From assembly GCF_024055725.1 (NCBI RefSeq), contig NZ_JAMXMX010000001.1:372001-436000 (forward strand): a stretch of 64,000 nt of DNA, given 5' to 3'. A model generated the notes under the pieces. That model was not told where the DNA came from. It ran no database searches and saw only the letters and a list, made by a program, of their open reading frames with translations. A program made the translations under genes and the position numbers. Shown here piece after piece: positions 40,449 through 60,150 of the stretch. The stretch's first letter is position 1, and every line of letters begins with the position of its first letter. The DNA comes from Actinoallomurus spadix (GTDB lineage Bacteria; Actinomycetota; Actinomycetes; Streptosporangiales; Streptosporangiaceae).

Positions 40449-42338
<1,890 letters not shown>

Positions 42339-42342
<4 letters not shown>

Positions 42343-43532
42343 TCCGTCGTTCCGGAACCGGTATCCGCAGGATTCGATTCTTCGGTACGGGCGGCGCGCA
42401 GTTCGGCGGTGATGGCGCGCTCTCGCTGGGCGTCCGCCTCGGCGCGGGCCGCGGCGCGGTCGCGCTCGAGGTCACGGACGCGCGCCTGCTCGGCACTCAA
42501 TCGCAGCCGCGCCTCCTCGAGCTCGCCGCGCAGGCGCTCGGCGGACGACCGGGCCTCGGCGGCTTCGGCACGGAGCCGTTCCGTCTCCGCGAGGGCGCCG
42601 TCCCGTACGGCGAGGGCGGCGGCACGCTCGGCGTCGGCGGAGGCCGCCCTGGCCTCGGCGCGCTCTCGGCCGGCCTCCGCGACCTCGGCCCGGGCGAGGG
42701 CGGCGGCCCGATCACGGTCGGCGTGTACCGCGGCGGTCCGTGCCTCGGCGAGCTCGGCGCGGGCCTCCTCCAGCCGGGCGAGGGCCTGCTCGGTCTCGCG
42801 TTCGGCGTGCCGGGCGGCGAGTTCCGCCTCCGCCTGGGCGCTCCGCGCGGTCTCGGCGTCCTGCCGGGCGCGTTCGGCCTGCGCGCGGGCCCGGTCGACG
42901 TCCTCGGCGGCCACCCGGCGGGTGTCCTCGATCTCCTGTGCGGCCCGCCGCGCCGCCTCTTCGGCGGTCTCCTCGGCCTGACGCACCAGGTCGGACGCCT
43001 CCGCCCGTACCCGCTCCGCCTCTGTACGGGCCTGCCGGGCCGAGGTCTGCGCGTCGTCGCGAGCGCGCTCGGCCTCCTGCGCTCGTTGTTCGGCGGCGTG
43101 GGCGCGCGCGTCGGCGTCCGCGGCCGCCTGCCGGGCCTGCTCGGCCATCCGGGTCGCCTCTTCCCTGGCGGCCATGGCGGCGGCGACCCGGGTCTGCGCC
43201 TGCGCGCGCTCGGCGCTGAGGCGAGCCTCGACACCGCGCGGGGACAGCTCGGACTCCAGCGCGGAGGCCAGTGGGGCGATGGCCGCGGCCAGGCCCTGTT
43301 CCATGCGGTCGTAGAGATCCTCGGCGCGGGCCAGCGCGCCGTCCAGGCCGGGGACCGCGCGGCGCAGCTCGCGGTCGCGTTTGGCGCGGGCCTGGCAGTC
43401 ACCGTCGGGGCAGTACGCGCGCGGCCGGCCGCGCCCGCTCCGCTGGGGGACCGGCTTCCCGCAGTAACGACACGGCCGCTCGGCCGGCTGTGCCTCGTCC
43501 GTACCGGGGTCTTCCGCACTCGAGATCGTCAC
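42339..43532 (-). CDS. Zinc-ribbon alanine-rich coiled-coil protein (KfrA-like)
   Basis: The 397-residue protein has a zinc-ribbon-like N-terminus: Cys21-x2-Cys24, then Cys41-x4-Cys46, inside an Arg-rich segment. From about residue 55 to 385 it is one long coiled coil of Ala/Glu/Arg heptads without prolines, then a short acidic tail. KfrA-type proteins share this build (DNA-binding head, long coiled-coil tail) and bind their own promoters. GTG 43532 is the start. The function here is unknown. A perfect 12-bp inverted repeat spans 43550-43594. Confidence 0.75.
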
Positions 43533-43549
43533 GGCGACAGTCTACATTT

Positions 43550-43594
43550 TCTGGTTTTCTGTTTCCAGTAAATAAGAAGTCCCAGAAAACCAGA
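43550..43594. promoter_or_regulatory. 12-bp inverted repeat operator in an AT-rich promoter
   Basis: TCTGGTTTTCTG (43550-43561) pairs perfectly with CAGAAAACCAGA (43583-43594) around a 21-nt AT-rich spacer. Read toward the coiled-coil gene, the following TAGACT is a fair -10 element. This stretch is strikingly AT-rich in a very GC-rich region. It probably serves as the gene's own operator. Confidence 0.75.
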
Positions 43595-43733
43595 TGAGCA
43601 ACCCACGGGAATGATGATTCCCGCAAGTTACGTGTAGTGATCGGTGGCCACGCTGCGACGCGTGCCACCTACGCGGATGCCCGACGCGAGTGGTCGGGGC
43701 ACCACGCTCGAGTTGGGGCGCCGGCCGGAGCGG

Positions 43734-44630
43734 TCAGGGCGATGGGTGCGGGATCTCCTGGCTGGGCGCGGTTACGGGCGCGGTCAGGTCGAGCAGCATC
43801 ATGGCGTCGTGGTCGGGAGTGCCGGGTTGGGCGGTATAGACGCCGATGCGCTGGCCAGGGGTGCCTTCCAGGTACATGGGCTGGGACGTGAGCGTGACCG
43901 TTCCGACGCGGGGGTGGTGGAAGGTCTTCTGCGCGGGTTTGCGGCCGGTGACCTCGTAGCGTTCCCACAGCCGGGCGAAGTCGGGGCTCTTGAGGAGGAG
44001 CTCACCGACGAGGTTGGTCAGGTCGGGGGCGTCGGGGGCGATGCCGGCGACGGCGCGCAGCCGGGCGACGCAGCCGGTGATCTGGCGGCCCCAGTCCGGA
44101 AACAGGTCACGCGCGGCCGGGTGAAGGAAGAGGTAGCGGGCCAGGTTGCGGTGTTTGACCGGCCAGTCCTCCAAGCCCGCGTACAGGGCGAGGCCGCCGG
44201 GGTTCCAGGCCAGCATGTCCATGCTGCGGCTGATGACGTAGGCGGGGTTCGGCCGCAGTGATTCCAGCAGCAGTTTCAGGTGGGGGCGCACGGTGCGGCT
44301 CGGGGCCGGGGGCGGTTCGGGGGCGTAGCGGGCGGCCCGGGCGGCCAGCTCGCGCAGGTGCTGGTGCTCCTGGTCGTCCATGTGCAGAGCGCGGGCGAGG
44401 GAGTCGAGGACGGCGGGGCTGGGGCGGGTCTCCTTGCCGCGTTCCAGACGCACGTAGTAGTCGATGCTGATCCCGGCCAGGGTGGCCAGCTCTTCGCGGC
44501 GCAGGCCGGGAGTACGGCGGATGCCGGGGCCGACGGTGAGGCCCACGTGTTCGGGGCTGGTCTGGGTGCGGCGGGCGCGCAGGTAGCGACCCAGCTCAGC
44601 GCCCTCGCTGTTCGCGCTCTGGGATGCCAT
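43734..44630 (-). CDS. MmyB-like XRE regulator (module 4)
   Basis: The 298-residue protein starts MASQSANSEGAELGRYLRARR and has TPGLRREELATLAGISIDYYVRLERG (residues about 40-65). The MmyB ligand domain follows, ending QKTFHHPRVGTVTLTSQPMYLE. It is the fourth such regulator, divergent here not from an SDR but from a zinc alcohol dehydrogenase gene 394 bp away. The 22-bp motif at 44677 is shared with module 1. Confidence 0.93.
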   Translation of the reverse strand: MASQSANSEGAELGRYLRARRTQTSPEHVGLTVGPGIRRTPGLRREELATLAGISIDYYVRLERGKETRPSPAVLDSLARALHMDDQEHQHLRELAARAARYAPEPPPAPSRTVRPHLKLLLESLRPNPAYVISRSMDMLAWNPGGLALYAGLEDWPVKHRNLARYLFLHPAARDLFPDWGRQITGCVARLRAVAGIAPDAPDLTNLVGELLLKSPDFARLWERYEVTGRKPAQKTFHHPRVGTVTLTSQPMYLEGTPGQRIGVYTAQPGTPDHDAMMLLDLTAPVTAPSQEIPHPSP

Positions 44631-45024
44631 GACTCCAGTCTCACCCGCTGGGTATCCGCTGCGCAGACGGGAGGGGGGCCCTGTCATTACCCCTGAAGAT
44701 CCCGGCCTGCCACCGCGGAGCAATCCGGGCAAAGGTGAATGAGGAAGACAGGAAGACGCCGTCCCATCGCCGGCGCCCGGGCTCCAACCGGCACGACCTG
44801 CCGGACCGGGCGGAGGTGAGGGGGCAGGCAACGCCACCAACCGGAGAAGGCGAGATGCGGTACATCAAGCTGCGTGACCTGGCCACAAGCTCAGCAGCTC
44901 GCCGCCTCCCGCAGGGGACACGCACACCGAGGCTCAGGCACGGATGCTCGAACGCTGATCCCACCCCGGCACGCCGCGCTTCTCGTGGCGCCACCCCACC
45001 CCCTCGTTTGGAGTAACACCTCTT
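44631..45024. other. 394-bp gene-free region between module 4 regulator and dehydrogenase
   Basis: It contains the module motif at 44677-44698 and, at 44855, an ATG with GAGAAGG ribosome site and a start (MRYIKLRDL) like aldo/keto reductases but no further homology. The rest shows no domain. Part of the region is probably a leftover of a deleted reductase gene. Confidence 0.45.
44677..44698. promoter_or_regulatory. MmyB-module promoter motif, copy in module 4
   Basis: This 22-mer (GGCCCTGTCATTACCCCTGA plus AG) is 17/22 identical to that at 15409-15430 in module 1, and is placed 47 bp upstream of its regulator. Together they suggest a shared recognition site. Confidence 0.5.
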
Positions 45025-46053
45025 ATGCGCGCAGCAGTGATGTACGGAGCCGGCGACGTTCGCGTCGAGGACCGGCCCGACCCGAAGATCGTCCAGCCGG
45101 CCGACGCGGTGGTGCGCACGCTCGCCGCGTGTGTGTGCGGCAGCGACCTGTGGCCGTATCAGTCGATGCCCGCCACCGACACCGGTCGTCCCATGGGGCA
45201 CGAGTTCCTCGGCGTCGTCGAGGCGACCGGCGCGGACGTGACCGGCCTGAGAACCGGTGATCTGGTCGTCGCCCCGTTCACCTACAGCGACAACACCTGC
45301 GACTACTGCGCCAAGGGCCTGCACTTCTCGTGCCGCAACGGCGGCCGGTACGGTTTCGACGGCGTCGACGGCGGGCAGGGCGAAGCGGTCCGCGTCCCCT
45401 ACGCGGACGGCACTCTGGTGAAGCTGCCGGTCGCCGCCGATTCCGCGCTGGTGCCGTCACTGCTGGCGCTGTCGGACGTGATGAGCACCGGCCACCACGG
45501 CGCCGTCACCGCGGGTGTCGGCCGCGGTGACACGGTGCTGGTCGTCGGGGACGGCGCGGTCGGCCTGTGCGCGGTGATCGCCGCCAAGCGGCTCGGTGCC
45601 GAGCGGATCGTGCTCGCCGGCCGCCACGAAGCCCGCACCGATCTGGGTCGCGAGTTCGGTGCCACCGATGTCGTCGCCGAGCGCGGTGAGGAGGGCATCG
45701 CCCGCATTCGCGAGCTGACCGGTGGCGTGGACAAGGTGATCGAGGCCGTCGGCACCCGCCAGGCCCTGGACACCGCGCTCGGCGCGGTCCTGGACGGCGG
45801 CACCATCAGCCGCCTGGGCGTCCCCCAGTACGAGCAGGGGCCGGTCGGCCCGGCCGAGTTCATGCGCAACATCACCCTGACCGGCGGCGCCAGCCCTGCC
45901 CGCGCCTACATCGAGCAGTTGCTGCCCGACATCCTGGACGGCACCATCGCCCCTGGCCGCGTCTTCGACCGTACCTTCACCCTCGAACAGGCCCCGGACG
46001 CCTACCGGGCCATGGCCGACCGCCAGGTGCTCAAGGCCCTCATCCGCCCCTGA
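45025..46053 (+). CDS. Zinc-dependent alcohol dehydrogenase (MDR family)
   Basis: The 342-residue protein has the catalytic-zinc ligands Cys37 (VCGSDLWPY) and His59-Glu60 (GHEFLGVVE). The structural-zinc lobe is only partial: NTCDYCAKGLHFSCRNGG keeps three cysteines. The NAD motif VLVVGDGAVGLCAVIAA (about residues 168-184) is clear. Reactions are NAD(P)-linked alcohol/aldehyde conversions. GGAGT stands 10 bp before ATG 45025. It is divergent from the fourth MmyB regulator. Confidence 0.93.
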   Translation: MRAAVMYGAGDVRVEDRPDPKIVQPADAVVRTLAACVCGSDLWPYQSMPATDTGRPMGHEFLGVVEATGADVTGLRTGDLVVAPFTYSDNTCDYCAKGLHFSCRNGGRYGFDGVDGGQGEAVRVPYADGTLVKLPVAADSALVPSLLALSDVMSTGHHGAVTAGVGRGDTVLVVGDGAVGLCAVIAAKRLGAERIVLAGRHEARTDLGREFGATDVVAERGEEGIARIRELTGGVDKVIEAVGTRQALDTALGAVLDGGTISRLGVPQYEQGPVGPAEFMRNITLTGGASPARAYIEQLLPDILDGTIAPGRVFDRTFTLEQAPDAYRAMADRQVLKALIRP

Positions 46054-46295
46054 CCTCGCCTCCCACCCGCGCAGCGAAGGACATCCCCGCCATGCGGTAC
46101 GTGACCTTGAACAACGACCGGTTCCTGGCGGTGATCGCGCCGGCGTCACCGAACCGCAGTCGAGCGGAGAACCCGTTGTCGGCCTCGACCTTGTCGGCCG
46201 CGCCGTCACTCGGCGCCGCCGTACCGGCCCGGTCTCCTGATGGACGGACGGTCAACGGCGGCGACCCGGCGCGTGGGGCGGCCCTGGGCGCGGTT

Positions 46296-46994
46296 TCAGG
46301 CGGGTGGCCGCGGGTCTCTGGCAACGTCCAGGCCGGTCAGCAGGAGATCGAGGCCGATGATGAACTGGTCCCGGTCGTCGTGGTCGCGCAGGTCCCCGGT
46401 CACTCGTGTCAGGAAGGGATGCTCGGCGGGATCGAGTCTCTCCCAGTGTTCGGCCGTCTGGTCGAGGAAGGCATCACGGCTGGGGACCGCGCCGCCGGCG
46501 GGACCCGGGACGATGATCTGGGCGCTGACACCGGTGACGTAGTAGAAGATCGCGGTGGCGACCGCGAACCGCCGATCGGCGGGCAGCCCGGTTCGCGTGA
46601 CGAGGGTGCCGATCCTGTCCAGCAGACGCAGCGCGTTGGCCAGCGTGGGAGGCGCGGTGACGTGGGAGGCCGCCCACTGGTGCCGGTCCAGGGCATCGAA
46701 CACGGCGATGGCGAGCGCCCGCAACTCGGCCCCGGCACCGGCCGCGGGTCCCGGTGCCGCCGTGAGCGCGTCACCGAGCACCCGATCGGCGGCCAGGGCG
46801 ACGAGTTCGTCCTTGTTCGCCACATGCCAGTACAGGGCTCCGGACCCGGTCTTCAGCCGTTCGGCCAGCAGCCGGAAGGTGAATCCCCGTTCGCCGAACT
46901 CGTCCAGCAACGCGACGGCGGCGCCGACAACGATCTCCTGGGAGAGGGCCTCGGCACGCCCTCCGGCAGGCGCCCTTCCTCGTGTCCGCGGCAT
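46296..46994 (-). CDS. TetR/AcrR-family regulator (TetR-like C-terminus)
   Basis: The 232-residue protein has an N-terminal helix-turn-helix (ALSQEIVVGAAVALLDEFGERGFTFRLLAERLKTGSGALYWHVANKDELVALAADRVL; the SGALYWHVANKDEL recognition helix is diagnostic), then a TetR_C-type ligand domain. ATG 46994 is chosen; a TTG at 47009 is possible. It converges on the alcohol dehydrogenase gene, and its target is not clear. Confidence 0.9.
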   Translation of the reverse strand: MPRTRGRAPAGGRAEALSQEIVVGAAVALLDEFGERGFTFRLLAERLKTGSGALYWHVANKDELVALAADRVLGDALTAAPGPAAGAGAELRALAIAVFDALDRHQWAASHVTAPPTLANALRLLDRIGTLVTRTGLPADRRFAVATAIFYYVTGVSAQIIVPGPAGGAVPSRDAFLDQTAEHWERLDPAEHPFLTRVTGDLRDHDDRDQFIIGLDLLLTGLDVARDPRPPA

Positions 46995-47165
46995 GCCCCC
47001 ATTCTGCAATGCCCGTGCGGAGTGGGGGCGAAGCGGCTCACGGCGCCGAGACCGGCCGGACCATCCGATGACGAGGCCGCCGGCCCCCGAACCTCATGAG
47101 GGCCGGCAGGATCCGTTCCAGGTTCGGTGCCGGTGCCGGTGCCGGTGCCGTGGTGGCGGACGTGG

Positions 47166-48803
47166 TCAGACTATGCGGGCACAGAGGGTGCGGCCCCGGA
47201 CCTCCCAGTGGACCCTTCTGCCTCCCTGCGGGCAGGCACCGCTGGTGAACGCGGTGATACGGAGGACGAAGTCGTACTCCCCCGGAGCGGAGCCGGCCCC
47301 GCACGGCCACGACGTCATCAGATCCGTGTTGCTGATGGCGACCGAGTTCTTCTCCTCACCCTTTGTGGCCAGGAAACAGTCACCCGTGTGGAACTGCCGC
47401 TGCACGCAGAGGGTGATCTCGTTCGGTTCCTTGCCGTAGCTCCACCACAGTTCCCCGTCCAGATCGGCGCCGTGCCTGTTGCACCCCAGGTCGCCATCGA
47501 TCACCTTCCACACCTTCAGGTAGGCATCGGAGCGGCCGCAGCCGACCGCGCGCGGCTTGCTCCTGCTCCACTCGCCGGACGGACGCTCGTAGGCGTCCAG
47601 GCAGTCGCCCGCCGAGATCTTCTCGAACGCCTTGCGGGTGGGATCGGAGCTGGGAGTGGGGGTGGGGGTGGCACTGTCGGTGGTGCTCGCGATCTCGGAC
47701 GGCTGAGGCGCGGGCGCCGGGGAGGTCGGGGTCTGCGAGGGAGTGGCGCCGGCCTTGGAGATGGCCGGTGCGTTTCGGTCGTCCTCGATGGCCCAGGCGG
47801 CGAAGGCGACCAGCAGGACGACCGCGACCGCGGCCGCGGCCACCGGGAGCCTCCTTCGTCCGAGCGGCGGAAACCGCCGGCCGTTCCCTGGCGCGTCCTG
47901 CGGCGGGGGCGCCAGCACCTCGGTCTCCGCCACCCGCGTGGCGATCATCGTGCTGACGGGCTCCGGCAGCGGAGCGTCCCCGCCCTCGGCGAGCGCGGAG
48001 CAACGTTCGAGGAACACGTCGAGGCCGGGCCGGTCTGCCGGATCCTTCTCCAGGCCGGACGCGATCAGCGGGAGCAGCGGCTCCGGTACGCCGGTCAGGT
48101 CGGGTTCCTCGTTGACGACGCGGTAGCCGAGGGCCTCGATCGGGCCCTCGCCGAAGGGCCGCCGGCCGGTGGCGGCGAAGGCCAGCACGGCGGCCAGGCA
48201 GAACACGTCACTGGCCGGCCCGACCTCGCGGCCCCGAAGCTGCTCGGGCGACATGAATCCGGGCGTACCGACCACGCTGGTGCGGGTGGTCTGCGAGGTG
48301 GCGTCGAGCGCGCGTGCGATGCCGAAGTCGATGATGCGGGGCCCGTCCTGGGCGAGCAGCACGTTGCCGGGCTTGAGGTCCCGGTGGACGACGCCCCGCT
48401 CGTGGATCGCCATCAGCCCTTCGGCCAGACCCGCGCCGAGCCCCGCGACCGCCGCCGCGGAGAACGCGCCGTGCTCGCCGACGGCCTCGTGCAGCGACGG
48501 CCCCGCGATGTACTCGGTCACGAGCCAGGGCGGATCGGCGTCGGCGCGGGCGTCCACCACCTGCACGGTGTGGATGCCCCCGACCCGCCGCACCGCGGCG
48601 ACCTCCGCCTCGAACCGCCGCCGGAACTGCGCGTCCTCCGCCAGGTGCGGGTGGATCACCTTGACCGCGACCGGCCGGCCGCCCTTCGAGCGGCCCAGGT
48701 AGACGCGGCCCATCCCGCCCGCTCCCAGCCGCGCCAGCAGCCGGTACCCGCCGACCTTCTTCGGGTCGCCGGCCTCGAGCGGCTTCAGTTTCTCGCTGGA
48801 CAC
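47166..48803 (-). CDS. Membrane serine/threonine protein kinase
   Basis: The 545-residue protein has a kinase domain: Gly loop LGAGGMGRVY (26-35), Lys48, HRDLKPGN with Asp142, DFGIAR (159-164) and GTPGFMSPEQ. One transmembrane helix at about 320-339 follows, then a Pro/Ser/Thr linker and an extracellular Cys-containing domain (residues about 395-545) with no PASTA repeats. It probably senses an outside signal. GTG 48803 (VSSEKLKPL) is preferred because GGGAGGG lies 7 bp before it. Confidence 0.9.
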   Translation of the reverse strand: MSSEKLKPLEAGDPKKVGGYRLLARLGAGGMGRVYLGRSKGGRPVAVKVIHPHLAEDAQFRRRFEAEVAAVRRVGGIHTVQVVDARADADPPWLVTEYIAGPSLHEAVGEHGAFSAAAVAGLGAGLAEGLMAIHERGVVHRDLKPGNVLLAQDGPRIIDFGIARALDATSQTTRTSVVGTPGFMSPEQLRGREVGPASDVFCLAAVLAFAATGRRPFGEGPIEALGYRVVNEEPDLTGVPEPLLPLIASGLEKDPADRPGLDVFLERCSALAEGGDAPLPEPVSTMIATRVAETEVLAPPPQDAPGNGRRFPPLGRRRLPVAAAAVAVVLLVAFAAWAIEDDRNAPAISKAGATPSQTPTSPAPAPQPSEIASTTDSATPTPTPSSDPTRKAFEKISAGDCLDAYERPSGEWSRSKPRAVGCGRSDAYLKVWKVIDGDLGCNRHGADLDGELWWSYGKEPNEITLCVQRQFHTGDCFLATKGEEKNSVAISNTDLMTSWPCGAGSAPGEYDFVLRITAFTSGACPQGGRRVHWEVRGRTLCARIV

Positions 48804-48949
48804 CCGCACGCCCTCCCACACGCACTGATGATCTAGAAAGCACCCTTCCACACAGAGCGACGGGCGGGAACGCCCCGCCAAGGCCGGCTCATAGGTGCCA
48901 TCGCGCGCCGGGCCTCTTCTGCTCTGTGACCGGCGCCACACGCAGTTCC

Positions 48950-48976
48950 TGTCAGCAATCGAAGCGCCGCTCCGCT
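48950..48976 (+). promoter_or_regulatory. Possible ECF41-type promoter upstream of the NDH-2-like gene
   Basis: TGTCAGC (48950-48956), then 16 bp, then CGCT (48973-48976), compares with the ECF41 consensus TGTCACA-N16-CGTC: five of seven and two of four bases match. It is 39 bp before the oxidoreductase ATG. This is weak but well placed. Confidence 0.35.
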
Positions 48977-49014
48977 CAAGTCACCGAGAGCAAGCGGACC
49001 GACAGGAGCAACCC

Positions 49015-50235
49015 ATGAAGCACCGCATCGTCGTTCTCGGCGCGGGCTACGCCGGGACCTACGTGGCCGGCACCCTGGCCCGGCGGCTGTCCCCGGCGGA
49101 CATCGAGATCACCGTGGTCAACGCCGTGCCGGACTTCGTCCAGCGGCTGCGGTTGCACCAGTTGGCGGCCGGACGGGAGATCGAGGCGCCGAAGCTCGCC
49201 GACGTCTTCGCGGGCACGGGGATACGGCTGCGCGTGGCGCGTGTCACCGCCGTCGCTCCCGAGCGCCAGGTCGTCGCCGTGGCCGACGCGGATGGCGGCG
49301 GCGAGCTGGGCTACGACACGCTCGTGTACGCGCTGGGCAGTCACGTCGCCGGCCGCGGCGTCCCCGGTGTGGCCGAGCACGCCTTCGACGTCACCGGTCG
49401 GCCCTCGGCGCTACGCCTGCGCGAGCGCCTGGACGGCCTGGTCAGGCGGCATGAAGGCGGGAACGTACTCGTCGTCGGCGACGGGTTGACCGGCATCGAG
49501 ACCGCCACCGAGATCGCCGAATCCCGGCCCGGTCTGTCGGTGGCGCTGGTCGCGCGCGGTGAACTGGGCGCCCGGCTCTCCGCCGGGGCCCGCAGTCACC
49601 TGCGCCAGGCCTGCGACCGGCTGGGCATCACCGTCCTGGAGCACACCGGCGTCGAAGCCGTCGAAGCGAAGCGAGTCCTGTGCTCGGACGGCACCGCCCT
49701 GCCATCCGACGCGACCGTGTGGACGGCCGGGTTCGCGGTCGGCCCCATCGCCGCCGCCGGCGGGCTGGAGGTCACCGAAGACGGTCAGATCGTCGTCGAT
49801 CGCACGATGCGGTCGGTCTCACACCCGAACGTCTATGCCGCCGGTGACAGTGTCCACGCCATCGGCGACAACGGCCTGCCGCTGCCGATGTCGTGTGCCT
49901 CGGCCGGCTACACCGGCCGGCAGGCCACGGAGGCGATCGTGGGACGCCTCACCGGCCGCAAGATCGCGAACCTCAAGCTGGCCTACCCGGGCAACCACAT
50001 CAGCCTCGGTCGGCGGGACGGGATCCTGCAGATGGTCGACGACGAAGCGCAGGCGAAATCGAGGTACGTGGGCGGCCGAAAGGCCGCGCGGGTCAAGGCG
50101 GGCATCCTCAGAATGTCGCTGTGGGCCGTCTCGCACCCGACCCTGGGCGTGCCCAAGCGCAGGCGCGGCCTGACCACGGCGCCGGGCGCGTACGCCGAGA
50201 TGGCGGTGGCGTACGCCGACGAGGCCGTCGCGTAG
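49015..50235 (+). CDS. NDH-2-like FAD-dependent pyridine-nucleotide oxidoreductase
   Basis: The 406-residue protein has the FAD motif VVLGAGYAGTYVAGTLARR (residues about 6-24), a second dinucleotide fold NVLVVGDGLTGIETATEIAE (about 150-169) and the FAD-contact segment VYAAGDSVHAIG (about 279-290). It resembles type II NADH dehydrogenases without the C-terminal membrane anchor, so a cytoplasmic quinone or small-substrate reductase is likely. AGGAG stands 8 bp before ATG 49015. It is 12 bp before a SigJ-type sigma gene. Confidence 0.9.
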   Translation: MKHRIVVLGAGYAGTYVAGTLARRLSPADIEITVVNAVPDFVQRLRLHQLAAGREIEAPKLADVFAGTGIRLRVARVTAVAPERQVVAVADADGGGELGYDTLVYALGSHVAGRGVPGVAEHAFDVTGRPSALRLRERLDGLVRRHEGGNVLVVGDGLTGIETATEIAESRPGLSVALVARGELGARLSAGARSHLRQACDRLGITVLEHTGVEAVEAKRVLCSDGTALPSDATVWTAGFAVGPIAAAGGLEVTEDGQIVVDRTMRSVSHPNVYAAGDSVHAIGDNGLPLPMSCASAGYTGRQATEAIVGRLTGRKIANLKLAYPGNHISLGRRDGILQMVDDEAQAKSRYVGGRKAARVKAGILRMSLWAVSHPTLGVPKRRRGLTTAPGAYAEMAVAYADEAVA

Positions 50236-50247
50236 CCGGCTTCTACG

Positions 50248-51213
50248 GTGGTCCACGTGGACAGCACCACTACTGATCGCTTCGGCATCAGCCGGTTCGA
50301 GGCCAGCCGGAGCCGGCTGGCCTCGCTGGCGTACCGGCTGCTGGGCTCCGCCGCCGACGCCGAAGACGCCGTGCAGGACGCGTTCCTGCACTGGCAGGCC
50401 GCCGACCGGCAGCGGATCGAGGTGCCGGAGGCATGGCTGACCAAGGTCGTCACCAACCTGTGCCTCGACCGGCTTCGCTCGGCACAGGCCCGCCGCGAAC
50501 GCACCGTCGGCGCCTGGCTGCCCGAACCGCTCCTCGACGGCGATCCGATGCTCGGCCCCGCCGACACTGTCGAGCAGCGTGAAACGGTGTCCCTGGCGGT
50601 ACTGACGCTCATGGAGCGCCTGTCACCCCTCGAGCGGGCCGTCTACCTCCTGCGCGAAGCGTTCTCCTACAGCCACGCCGAGATCGCCGGTTTCCTCGGC
50701 ATGACCGAGTCCGCGAGCCAGCAGCACCTCCACCGGGCCCGGCGCCGCATCACCTCCGCGCGGCGCCGGGGCGGCGGTGAAACCGACCCGGCGTCCGCCC
50801 GCAGGCTCGTCGAGGAGTTCCTCGCCGCCGCCTCCTCGGGCCGTACCGAGCGGCTGGTGGCGCTGCTCACCGACGACGCGACCGCGATCTCCGACGGCGC
50901 CGGCCTGACCAGGACGCTGCTGCGGTACGACACTCCGCAGCGCATCGCCGCCGTCGCGCGGGCCGGTCTCAAACCCACCCCCGCGAAACGGCGGCTTGCC
51001 GGCGGCACGTCCGCCGTCCACTACGCGCTCGTCAACGGCGGCCCCGCTATCCTCTTCGTGCTCGGGGACCGGGTCGTCGGCGCCGTGACGTTCGACATCG
51101 CCGACGGCAGGATCGCGACCGTGCGCGGCATCGCCGCGCCCGCCCGGCTCACCCGCCTGACCGGGGCCTGGCGGCAGTACGAGCCGGGACCACCGCTCAT
51201 CACCCAGTGGTGA
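50248..51213 (+). CDS. SigJ/ECF41-type RNA polymerase sigma factor
   Basis: The 321-residue protein has sigma region 2 (LASLAYRLLGSAADAEDAVQDAFLHW, residues about 25-50) and region 4 (LTLMERLSPLERAVYLLREAFSYSHAEIAGFLGMTESASQQHLHRARRRI, about 120-169). A C-terminal SnoaL/NTF2-like domain (about 188-290) replaces the anti-sigma factor, as in SigJ/ECF41. These sigmas regulate adjacent oxidoreductase-like genes. The last domain regulates activity. It is in an operon with the upstream oxidoreductase. Start GTG 50248 or 50257. Confidence 0.93.
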   Translation: MVHVDSTTTDRFGISRFEASRSRLASLAYRLLGSAADAEDAVQDAFLHWQAADRQRIEVPEAWLTKVVTNLCLDRLRSAQARRERTVGAWLPEPLLDGDPMLGPADTVEQRETVSLAVLTLMERLSPLERAVYLLREAFSYSHAEIAGFLGMTESASQQHLHRARRRITSARRRGGGETDPASARRLVEEFLAAASSGRTERLVALLTDDATAISDGAGLTRTLLRYDTPQRIAAVARAGLKPTPAKRRLAGGTSAVHYALVNGGPAILFVLGDRVVGAVTFDIADGRIATVRGIAAPARLTRLTGAWRQYEPGPPLITQW

Positions 51214-51276
51214 CCCGACGCCGCCGCGGCCAGGCGCAGCACCCGCGCTGAGCGAGTGAGCCGGCCGGGCGGTTCG

Positions 51277-52053
51277 CTAACCGCGATCCGCGCTCGGCCC
51301 GGTGGCGCCACCCGAGGTCGCTTCGGTTCTGGTGTAGAGGACCTCGCGCCCCTGGTCCGCGGCGCGGATGAGCGCTTCACTGACGAAGTCGAGGAATCGG
51401 GCGGCGTTCTCGAGGCGGGTGGCGGCCGGGGTGCCGGGGCCGAGGATGCCGACGCCCTGCCGTGCCGCCTCGATGATCTGGTCGTTGGACCGGGCGCTGC
51501 GGATCATCGACTGGTACCACAGGTCGTCGTCGACGACGTAGCGCTCGCGGCGGCGTTCGTCGCGTTCCCGGCGGATGAGGTCCAGACTCTCGAGGAACGC
51601 GATCGCTTTGGAGATGGACGCCGGGCTGACCTGAAGGCGCTGGGCGAGTTCAGCGGCGGTGAGGCTGCCGCTGTCGACGGTGTAGAGACAGGCCAGTACC
51701 CGGGCCATCATCTTGGGCAGGCCTGAGGCCATGTAGACGGTGGTGAGGGTCTCCTGGAAGTCGCGCACGGCGTCGGCGTCGCGCCCGTGGGGCTCGGGAG
51801 ACGCCTCCGCTCCTCGGGGCGTGGCCTGCCTGCGCCGGCGGGTGCGCTGCTGAGCGGTGCGCTGGGCCAGGTCGGCGCGGTAGCCGGTGGGGCCGCCGTT
51901 CCGCATCACCTCACGCGTGATCGTGGAGGTCGGACGGTCGAGCCGGCGGGCGATCTCGGCGTAGGCCAGGCCGTCGGCCAGCCCTGCGGCGATCTGCTGG
52001 CGATCCTGCTGGGTGAGCCTGCCTCCCGGCACCGGACCCCCTCCATGCCCCAT
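51277..52053 (-). CDS. GbsR/MarR-like regulator with IS30-like N-terminal HTH
   Basis: The 258-residue protein has an N-terminal helix-turn-helix of the kind found in IS30 transposases (LTQQDRQQIAAGLADGLAYAEIARRLDRPTSTITREV), an Arg-rich linker and a MarR/GbsR winged helix (about residues 118-175; LTAAELAQRLQVSPASISKAIAFLESLDLIRRERDERRRERY). This two-HTH build is known in actinobacteria. ATG 52053 is the start. The gene follows the UvrA-like gene on the same strand and its promoter carries a symmetrical site at 52101-52116. Confidence 0.9.
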   Translation of the reverse strand: MGHGGGPVPGGRLTQQDRQQIAAGLADGLAYAEIARRLDRPTSTITREVMRNGGPTGYRADLAQRTAQQRTRRRRQATPRGAEASPEPHGRDADAVRDFQETLTTVYMASGLPKMMARVLACLYTVDSGSLTAAELAQRLQVSPASISKAIAFLESLDLIRRERDERRRERYVVDDDLWYQSMIRSARSNDQIIEAARQGVGILGPGTPAATRLENAARFLDFVSEALIRAADQGREVLYTRTEATSGGATGPSADRG

Positions 52054-52091
52054 GGGTGCTCCACGGCGCTGCTCGATGGCCTCTGGCCCCC

Positions 52092-52121
52092 ACCATAGCG
52101 TTCACCTTTGAGGTAACGCAA
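52092..52121 (-). promoter_or_regulatory. Promoter with operator in the spacer for the GbsR-like gene
   Basis: On the minus strand TTGCGT (-35, 52121-52116) and TATGGT (-10, 52097-52092) are 18 bp apart. In that spacer lies the palindrome TTACCT-CAA-AGGTGAA (52116-52101; one mismatch). A bound dimer would block the polymerase. The regulator gene begins 39 bp downstream of the -10. Confidence 0.65.
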
Positions 52122-52169
52122 CGAGCGACCGCGAGGCCGGCCCGGCGAGCGAACCGGCTCGGAGCCCGG

Positions 52170-55489: not shown

Positions 55490-56563
55490 ATGGCTGACGA
55501 CGAACTCCAGGGCACAGCAGCGGGCCTCGACCGGATCCGTGGAGCCGGCACGCCGGCCGGGTCGGCGTCGCCCGGCGGTGGCGCGCTGCACGAGTGGGGG
55601 GCGCCCGGCCTGCCGTCGGCGTACGACCCGGAACGCGATCCGTACCGCGTTTACCTGGACCGGCTCGACAGCGAGCAGTCGCGGCGGACGATGCGCGGCT
55701 GCCTGGACCGTATCGCCCGGATCGTCGCCATGGACGAGAGCGTGACCGGGGCCGGGCGCCCGTGGTGGCTGCTCCGCTACGAGCACACGACGCGGATCCG
55801 CGCCGAACTGCGCGCCAGGACGATGGAGGACGGGCGGCCGGCCTACTCGCCGTCCTCGATCAACAAGCATCTCGTGGCGTTGCGGCAGGTGCTGCGCGAG
55901 TGCTGGCGGCTGGGGCTGATGACCGCCGAGGACTACCAGCGGGCCGTCGACCTGAAGTCGGTGGAGGGCAGCCGGCTGCCGCGCGGCCACCACATCCCGG
56001 ATCGTTCCCTGGCCGCCGCGCTGGCCGTGTGCGACGCCGATCCTTCGCCCGCCGGGCGGCGGGACGCGGCGCTGCTCGCCGTGCTCTACACCACCGGTGC
56101 CCGGCGCGGGGAGATCGCCGGGCTGGCGGTCGGCGACTATGACCCGGCGGAGCGGTCGCTGCGGGTCCGCGGCAAGCGCGACAAGGAACGGCTGGTGTAC
56201 GTGACGGTCGAGGCGGCCATGCGCCTGGACGCGTGGGTCGCCGTCCGCGGCCGTGGGCCCGGGGCGCTGTTCCCGCCGATCAGCAGGATGGGCCGGTGCC
56301 GAGTACGCGATGGGGTCCTGACCCACCCCACGGGGCAGGCGATCGCCGGGATCCTCGACCGCCGGCTGGCGCAGGCGGGCGTTCCGCCGCACACGCCCCA
56401 CGACTTCCGCCGGACCTTCATCGGGGAGCTGCTCGACGCCGGAGTCGACCTCGCCACGGCGCAGCAGCTCGTCGGTCACGCCTCACCGGCCACGACCGCG
56501 CGCTATGACCGCCGTCCCGAACGGCAACGCCGCGACGCCGTGGACCGGCTGCGCCTGCCCTGA
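55490..56563 (+). CDS. Orphan tyrosine-type site-specific recombinase (integrase)
   Basis: The 357-residue protein has an N-terminal SAM-like DNA-binding domain (residues about 55-150) and a catalytic C-terminal domain with Arg in TTGARRGEIAGL (about 200-211), HDFRRTF (about 303-309), GHAS (about 326-329) and the nucleophile Tyr in TTARYDRR (about 335). The residue order R...HxxR...H...Y is complete, so it should be active. No phage, plasmid or tRNA gene neighbours it, and no att repeats are recognised. Confidence 0.9.
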   Translation: MADDELQGTAAGLDRIRGAGTPAGSASPGGGALHEWGAPGLPSAYDPERDPYRVYLDRLDSEQSRRTMRGCLDRIARIVAMDESVTGAGRPWWLLRYEHTTRIRAELRARTMEDGRPAYSPSSINKHLVALRQVLRECWRLGLMTAEDYQRAVDLKSVEGSRLPRGHHIPDRSLAAALAVCDADPSPAGRRDAALLAVLYTTGARRGEIAGLAVGDYDPAERSLRVRGKRDKERLVYVTVEAAMRLDAWVAVRGRGPGALFPPISRMGRCRVRDGVLTHPTGQAIAGILDRRLAQAGVPPHTPHDFRRTFIGELLDAGVDLATAQQLVGHASPATTARYDRRPERQRRDAVDRLRLP

Positions 56564-59529: not shown

Positions 59530-60150
59530 TCAGGAGGCCGGGCGGCGGCGGCGCCGGTAGTGACGCGCGGCGCGGACCCGGTTGCCGCAGGCCGTGGAGC
59601 ACCACTCGCGGCGAGGGTGGTCCTTGAGGAAGTACAGGACGCATCCGGGGGCCAGGCAGGCGCGCAGCCGCAACCGGTCGGGGCGGCCGAACAGGGCGAC
59701 GGTCTCTTCGGCGACGGCCGACACCGCGGCGGCCGGCGCCCGCCCACCGGCCCGGACGGAACGGGCGGGTGTCCCACCGGGCGCCCACGTCAGCGCGGAC
59801 CAGCGGGGCGCCGCGCCGGCGGCCTCGTTGACGACGGCGACGGCGGCAGCCAGGTCCCGTACCGGGGCCGCCGCCGCCGGCCGCGGATCGCCGGTGGCCT
59901 CGGCCGCGAGCCGCCGCAGGGCGTCGCGCAGCGCGCGCAGCCGCCGCGCCAGGTCCTCGGCGTCGTCCGCGGTCAGGCCGTCGAGGTCGGCGGCGGTCAG
60001 CGGCTCGATCCGGGGGAGGACGGCCCGTAGCCACGCCTCGGCGCCGGACGGCCCGTCGAGCGCGTCGTGCACGCCGTCGCGGTCGCCCCAGACCGTGTTC
60101 ATCAGCTCGATGGGCAGCGGTTCGCCCAGCAGCGGCGCGCTCGTTCCCAT
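59530..60150 (-). CDS. CGNR zinc-finger/ABATE-domain protein
   Basis: The 206-residue protein has an N-terminal ABATE-like helical domain (residues about 10-150; LPIELMNTVW opening) and a C-terminal CGNR zinc finger: CLAPGCVLYFLKDHPRREWCSTACGNRVRAARHYRR, with Cys165, Cys170, Cys185 and Cys189 and the name motif CGNR. It probably binds DNA. It stands alone and is not in an operon. Confidence 0.94.
   Translation of the reverse strand: MGTSAPLLGEPLPIELMNTVWGDRDGVHDALDGPSGAEAWLRAVLPRIEPLTAADLDGLTADDAEDLARRLRALRDALRRLAAEATGDPRPAAAAPVRDLAAAVAVVNEAAGAAPRWSALTWAPGGTPARSVRAGGRAPAAAVSAVAEETVALFGRPDRLRLRACLAPGCVLYFLKDHPRREWCSTACGNRVRAARHYRRRRRPAS

Follow-up and report, generated by a model that had tools for sequence, protein, structure and literature searches.

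A candidate site-specific recombination module with a long helical helper protein, found mostly near the replication terminus of Streptosporangiales chromosomes

Gene T and its upstream elements

The window (the whole 64,000-nucleotide stretch of DNA analyzed here) comes from an 8.0 Mb genome in 71 contigs, whose closest named relatives are Actinoallomurus soli, an Actinoallomurus MAG and Actinomadura sp. DC4. A minus-strand gene, designated T, occupies positions 42339–43532; its open reading frame, taken from the ORF listing and its translation, runs from a GTG start at 43532 to 42339 and encodes 397 residues. An N-terminal CRYC...YCPDGDC motif is followed by a tail rich in Ala, Glu and Arg. 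The head (43395–43472, minus strand) is arranged as C21-x2-C24 ... C41-x4-C46, with Gly33-Arg34-Gly35-Arg36-Pro37, which we take to be an AT-hook core, between the Cys pairs. Both pairs and the GRGRP loop are invariant in two alignments (A1, 13 rows; A2, 21 rows). An AlphaFold2 model of residues 1–150 (pLDDT 84.5, pTM 0.44) displays short strand pieces followed by helices at residues 45–59, 63–96, and 98–149, while for residues 151–397 the term coiled coil reflects composition. The four-Cys head and long Ala-rich tail reported in the preliminary description of this DNA are therefore real features of the frame, and the modeled part of the tail is helical. It is probable that T is a long, rod-shaped, DNA-binding protein.

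No Pfam family matched T at E ≤ 1, with either the whole protein or its first 100 residues as query, and no NCBIfam family came close to its cut-off for T. The likeness to plasmid KfrA proteins drawn in the preliminary description is fair as an analogy, namely a KfrA-like architecture with a different head, but KfrA_N itself is absent from T. With orthologues defined by E < 1e-30, T is present in five of eight genus genomes and 142 of 297 family genomes. Matches at E ≤ 0.001 are found in 191 of the 297, a count that takes in a paralogous group without the RGRP loop. Across the phylum, eight of 396 genomes, the source genome included, have a match at E ≤ 1e-5. One member of the paralogous group (L002; G000:C55:271388-272461, minus strand) lies in a 957-residue frame and combines a similar Cys4 head, lacking the RGRP loop, with an LSxxGVExR segment resembling that of T and a Pro-rich C-terminus; matches of this type occur in all eight genus genomes.

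Upstream of T, the arms TCTGGTTTTCTG (43550–43561) and CAGAAAACCAGA (43583–43594) of an inverted repeat are 100% complementary, with 21 nucleotides between them. The AT content of the window is highest in the stretch starting at 43536–43541 (67, 63, and 59% over 45, 60, and 90 nucleotides), and the earlier observation of a perfect 12-bp inverted repeat inside the most AT-rich stretch of the window was reproduced in both respects. Perfect 12-bp arms no more than 40 nucleotides apart are not unusual here, the GC-rich window having 11 places with 21 overlapping pairs in all; among the perfect 12-bp arm pairs, this repeat and one at 2873 are the only two with at least six A/T per arm. The exact 12-bp repeat is not conserved in relatives (L003, L005, and L006 differ); what is kept across them is a wider architecture of two elements, A and B. 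The operator previously proposed at 43550–43594 lies within this conserved cis region, but is only part of it, the larger palindrome of element A having been overlooked.

Element B (43545–43594, minus strand) is an AT-rich palindrome, or repeated CAGAAAA half-sites, that takes in the 12-bp inverted repeat and is a putative binding site for T. Over 86 loci it is 71% AT across 45 nucleotides, and 69.9% complementary about the chosen centre compared with 30–53% when the centre is shifted, the former value being inflated because the centre was picked to maximize pairing. Element B overlaps the putative T promoter, for which a candidate −10 box, TAGACT (43539–43544, minus strand), was recognized by eye 6 nucleotides upstream of the GTG start; TAnnnT occurs at a similar place in many relatives' T loci. 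Given this short distance, the T promoter is probably leaderless, and element A would lie outside the T transcript. The earlier picture of T, chromosomally encoded, helical in its tail, and with a palindrome covering its putative promoter, is borne out by the sequence of the locus and its relatives.

Element A (43598–43631, minus strand) is the palindrome GTAACTTGCGGGAA-TCATCA-TTCCCGTGGGTTGC (14-6-14) and a putative recombinase core site. Across relatives it is a 34–35 nucleotide palindrome with 14-bp arms and a 6–7 bp centre, found in 66 of the 80 upstream regions scored. A further 18 duplicate loci and 12 loci not caught by the head pattern fall outside these 80; of the 12, six have A, five have an exchanged site (described below), and L092 is unclassed. 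Pairing of arm cells, scored on 48 of these 66, reaches 86.9%, compared with at most 51.6% when the partner is slid, and 34 cells carry double changes against 19.6 in shuffles. For two of five measures, covariation is not above that of shuffles (double-change pairs, 5 vs. 4.7; further pair types, 19 vs. 17.9). The sole match to the covariance model at E ≤ 10 in the source genome is its own site (E 7.2e-6; this row is part of the model), and each of the five T-positive genus genomes, four of which are in the model, has one strong site (E ≤ 3.2e-5).

Several A-like sequences are found in other contexts. A weaker solo site (E 0.018) occurs in G006, a genome with neither S (the recombinase gene described below) nor T; this A-like palindrome (L138, positions 1501–1534; G006:C49) has a transposase-like ORF adjoining it (by eye). 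At L034 (G289), in a T-only genome, the place of A is taken by a perfect palindrome with 15-bp arms, CTGACTTCCGCTAAG-TGAG-CTTAGCGGAAGTCAG. Degenerate CCTCAG...GAGACAGGACA-like repeats were seen by eye just outside A upstream of L003, L031–L033, L095, and L138.

Tyrosine recombinase S and the exchange of the putative core site

Gene S (55490–56563, plus strand) encodes a 357-residue tyrosine recombinase with a Phage_integrase domain (PF00589, E 8.6e-22). The R, K, HxxR, H, and Y motifs, the catalytic residue set of tyrosine recombinases as given in PMC5357621, are recognizable by eye. S scores below the NCBIfam equivalog cut-offs of both XerC (106 vs. 335 bits) and XerD (85 vs. 330 bits). It lies 12 kb from T on the same contig. 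Within the genus, S (E ≤ 1e-30) is present in five of five T-positive and none of three T-negative genomes. Among 297 family genomes, 122 have both genes, 20 T only, 5 S only, and 150 neither (Fisher p 1.5e-54; the statistics take no account of shared ancestry, and S orthologues and paralogues are told apart by E-value alone). Some S matches contain an in-frame stop (e.g., G230, G126, and G239).

T and the best S match are on one contig in 48 cases; 38 of these pairs are divergent, and the distance between T and S ranges from 470 bp to 1.18 Mb (G159 left out of both counts). The most compact of these pairs, with distances of 1.7 kb or less in nine of 48, have A and B between S and T in those read (e.g., L149 and L150). 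In G001, A is flanked by a divergent tyrosine recombinase, a relative of the S encoded in the window, and is separated from T by a hydrolase ORF. In both G005 and G001 a separate −10 box at the S start directly adjoins A (by eye), so the A–B region probably doubles as a two-way promoter region. By comparison with these two compact layouts, TAGTGAT in the window (43635–43641, plus strand; by eye), next to A, may be what is left of such a −10 box of the recombinase.

The type of site follows the presence of S. In hand-mapped loci, S (−log10E ≥ 85) accompanies 51 of 52 A-type sites, none of eight Xer-type sites, and two of seven loci with no site. The 20 T-positive genomes (of 142) without S include all five T-positive members of g28 (Acrocarpospora by mapping) and six of seven of g34 (Herbidospora). 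Individual loci depart from this pattern: L056 has a degenerate A and no S, neither A nor B is present at L067 and L093 although their genomes have S, and the S match of L086 (E about 1e-86) is borderline, being comparable to paralogues within its genus. Four Acrocarpospora and four Herbidospora loci have CATAACGAGGATTATGT instead of A. This core has a centre of 6 bp and a half similar to the dif half TTATGT, the Xer-likeness being confined to ATAA/TTATGT. These loci form one group in the T tree (support 96/90), and the exchange was therefore probably one event. An S orthologue is absent from the genomes mapped to them, seven of eight having no match at E ≤ 1e-45 and the remaining one (G040) matching through a 40% identical integrase. 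The exchanged site is 66–67 bp from B in all eight; for 51 of the 59 S1-type rows the A–B spacing is 65–68 bp, against about 47–57 bp on the Actinomadura/Actinoallomurus side. The strongest sign that A would belong to the recombinase and B to T is this exchange, in which A was swapped at a constant distance from B where S is missing.

The exchange also bears on the alternative that T is a stand-alone KfrA-like autorepressor, or an organizer of the nucleoid or terminus, with A and B as its operators and S as a neighbor with a separate role. AT-rich DNA suits an RGRP head, as B would here; A and B overlap the putative S and T promoters in the compact layout, and T occurs without S in the genomes counted above. 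As an operator of T, however, A should survive the loss of S, yet it was swapped for an Xer-like core while the T head and B stayed. Nucleoid proteins have many sites, whereas one strong A site was found per T-positive genus genome in the five searched. We regard this alternative as unlikely, though it deserves to be taken seriously. Partition or general nucleoid organization, previously suggested as a possible involvement, is not supported as the main role: a site of recombination type (A), a tyrosine recombinase that co-occurs with T, and a location at the terminus favor site-specific recombination instead.

Flanking DNA, inheritance, and chromosome position

Flanks were compared in 24 locus pairs of at least 85% identity, drawn from the 55 loci in which A was scored. 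Most pairs lose homology within approximately 25 bp of the outer A edge on the left, and at or before the T stop codon (no more than approximately 16 bp beyond it) on the right; L058–L083, with kilobases of synteny, is the clear exception. Between the window and G004, blastn finds S and its neighbors in common, and T and A in common, but not the intervening DNA. The stretch without a match (E ≤ 1e-15) in the G004 island, 43633–52139, forms a variable zone between A and the S-carrying block. Transposase- and integrase-like ORFs are frequent in the flanks of T loci. In 12 of 76 loci (L074, 1670–2617, and 11 others), a tyrosine recombinase of a second type is found to the left of the site, several of them in pieces; the ends of these integrases are 136–2251 bp from the site in the eight loci measured. 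A FAD monooxygenase gene 3′ of T in the window (40449–42089) has an 88% DNA match in G007 on the opposite side of A, and accessory genes thus shift place around the module. Elsewhere in the window, the ORF at 59530–60150 ends in a zinc-finger-like WCSTACGNRVRAARHYRR, presumably of CGNR type.

In the T tree, taken alone without a species tree, the genus labels (assigned by us; several groups are single-row) require 17 changes for 18 groups, which is the minimum. Nonomuraea has support of 89/55, and Planobispora and Actinoallomurus are not single clades. Together with the turnover of the flanks, this genus-keeping tree is better fitted by a conserved unit within a fast-changing region than by a mobile gene.

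The position of T was related to dnaA, which was located in all 26 genomes queried (25 above the family cut-off; that of G263 is below it and split). These genomes were hand-picked as T-positive with few contigs, with G100, G173, and G217 among those outside the sample. Position was measured in 22, since T and dnaA are on different contigs in G001, G063, G160, and G230; some of the chromosome lengths used are rounded genome sizes. T lies at 0.9 or more of the half-chromosome from dnaA in 18 of 22 genomes and at 0.87 or more in 20 (0.88–0.999), the exceptions being G124 (0.40) and G239 (0.19). Among single-contig genomes it is at 0.9 or more in nine of ten, and in 17 of 20 comparisons the antipode is closer to T than to S. 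Accessory genes of large actinomycete chromosomes gather away from the origin, and the position of T could therefore be passive. With a search pattern taken from the Frankia alni dif sequence quoted in PMC3025954, a canonical dif core (0–1 mismatch), separate from A, was found in nine of 20 genomes; it is exact to the pattern in G000 and lies 38–456 kb from T in the six genomes with both on one contig. Where a canonical dif core is present, a second dimer-resolution system is not obviously needed.

Inheritance and position also weigh on two readings that draw on mobile elements. A Tn3-type transposon could have left its resolution module (TnpS/rst/TnpT-like) behind as a fossil with no present function. 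Such a module would have the observed layout, which equals TnpS-rst-TnpT as described in PMC7157771, and Tn3-type transposase-like ORFs lie near a number of loci (named by eye, without family search). Against this stand genus-wise inheritance and strict site spacing despite flank replacement, the terminus position in 20 of 22 genomes, and the listed ORFs of the window, in which no transposase was noticed (list reading, without family search); such an origin without function seems improbable. More doubtful still is A as an integration hot spot for mobile elements, with S as their integrase or the host's: the DNA beyond A differs between near relatives, the second integrase type occurs left of the site, and S and T can be very far apart, but the source genome has no second A-like site at E ≤ 10, the 3′ side of T turns over equally sharply with no shared motif seen by eye, and the integrases measured end well off the site.

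A proposed resolution module and its relation to known systems

On balance, we lean towards S, A, B, and T forming a chromosomal site-specific recombination module, with T as its architectural helper, that would act in resolution near the terminus. S, as an Xer-type tyrosine recombinase, would act at core site A. T would bind the AT-rich B beside A through its Cys4/RGRP head, repress its own promoter located in B, and bridge two A–B copies through its long helical tail. Through such bridging, recombination would run in the resolving direction only, the role ascribed to TnpT (Tn4651) and to PepA/ArgR (cer). Since A, B, and T are in most cases kept at the replication terminus, the likeliest task would be to resolve chromosome dimers, or other duplications meeting there, beside the canonical XerCD/dif. 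We infer each binding, catalytic, and cellular step (T on B, S cutting A, the product of dimer resolution). The module reading builds on observed co-occurrence, divergent layout, conserved sites and spacing, and a single strong site in each genome searched. Genus-wise inheritance, the terminus position in most chromosomes measured, and the exchange of the site in the S-less clade were likewise observed.

The resolution of chromosome dimers is generally attributed to XerCD/dif/FtsK or to single-Xer variants. It is tempting, and at present quite tentative, to suppose that Streptosporangiales have a second terminus-anchored resolution system composed of S, A, and T at B, and that one clade lost S, had its core re-tooled for the host XerCD, and kept the helper and accessory site, giving a chromosomal cer-like site. 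If true, large actinomycete chromosomes would have a novel means of handling their terminus: a module that brings its own recombinase, site, and architectural helper and stays near the terminus as the DNA around it is replaced. Because the core site was exchanged where the recombinase was lost, the modularity of core and helper is open to direct testing, with natural variants supplied by the 142 T-positive genomes.

The proposed module resembles TnpS-rst-TnpT of Tn4651 (pWW0 genes), in which, according to PMC7157771, a tyrosine recombinase and a helper are divergent with two inverted-repeat pairs between them (the legend of Fig. 1 there swaps the names TnpS and TnpT; the text has them the right way round). 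S-A-B-T likewise has a divergent recombinase and helper with two palindromes between, a TnpT-like layout found at close range in the compact pairs of relatives such as L149 and L150. The proteins themselves differ. TnpT has a KfrA_N head (PF11740, E 2.6e-26) and coiled-coil matches in a Pfam search, whereas T has a Cys4/RGRP head; BLASTP detects no homology between T and TnpT (best E 16), and S is 29% identical to TnpS over only 164 residues. TnpS-rst-TnpT is part of Tn3 transposons, while S-A-B-T is chromosomal, mostly terminal, and not a recognized transposon, Tn3-like TnpA ORFs adjoining only some T loci (named by eye).

XerS/difSL and XerH/difH are modules of a single recombinase with its gene beside its own site (PMC5357621), and S-A resembles them in the compact layouts, where the recombinase gene adjoins its candidate site. 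S is far under the XerS cut-off (48 vs. 267 bits), the centre of A is 6–7 bp compared with 11 for difSL, and S-A-B-T has an extra putative helper, T. Nor does S-A stand in place of XerCD/dif, as XerS/difSL does, a canonical dif core being present in G000. T itself is like KfrA of plasmid RA3, for which an N-terminal DNA-binding head, a long helical tail, and an operator over its own promoter are described in PMC7783346; T has a long helical tail, a putative N-terminal DNA-binding head, and a candidate operator over its own putative promoter. Unlike KfrA of RA3, T is chromosomal, lacks KfrA_N, and is linked to a recombinase and core site. At cer and psi, according to PMC5357621, a core site is combined with accessory sequences bound by helpers, XerCD acting with PepA/ArgR or ArcA. 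While these are plasmid sites with helpers unrelated to T, S-A-B-T shares with them the combination of a core site and an accessory sequence for a putative helper.
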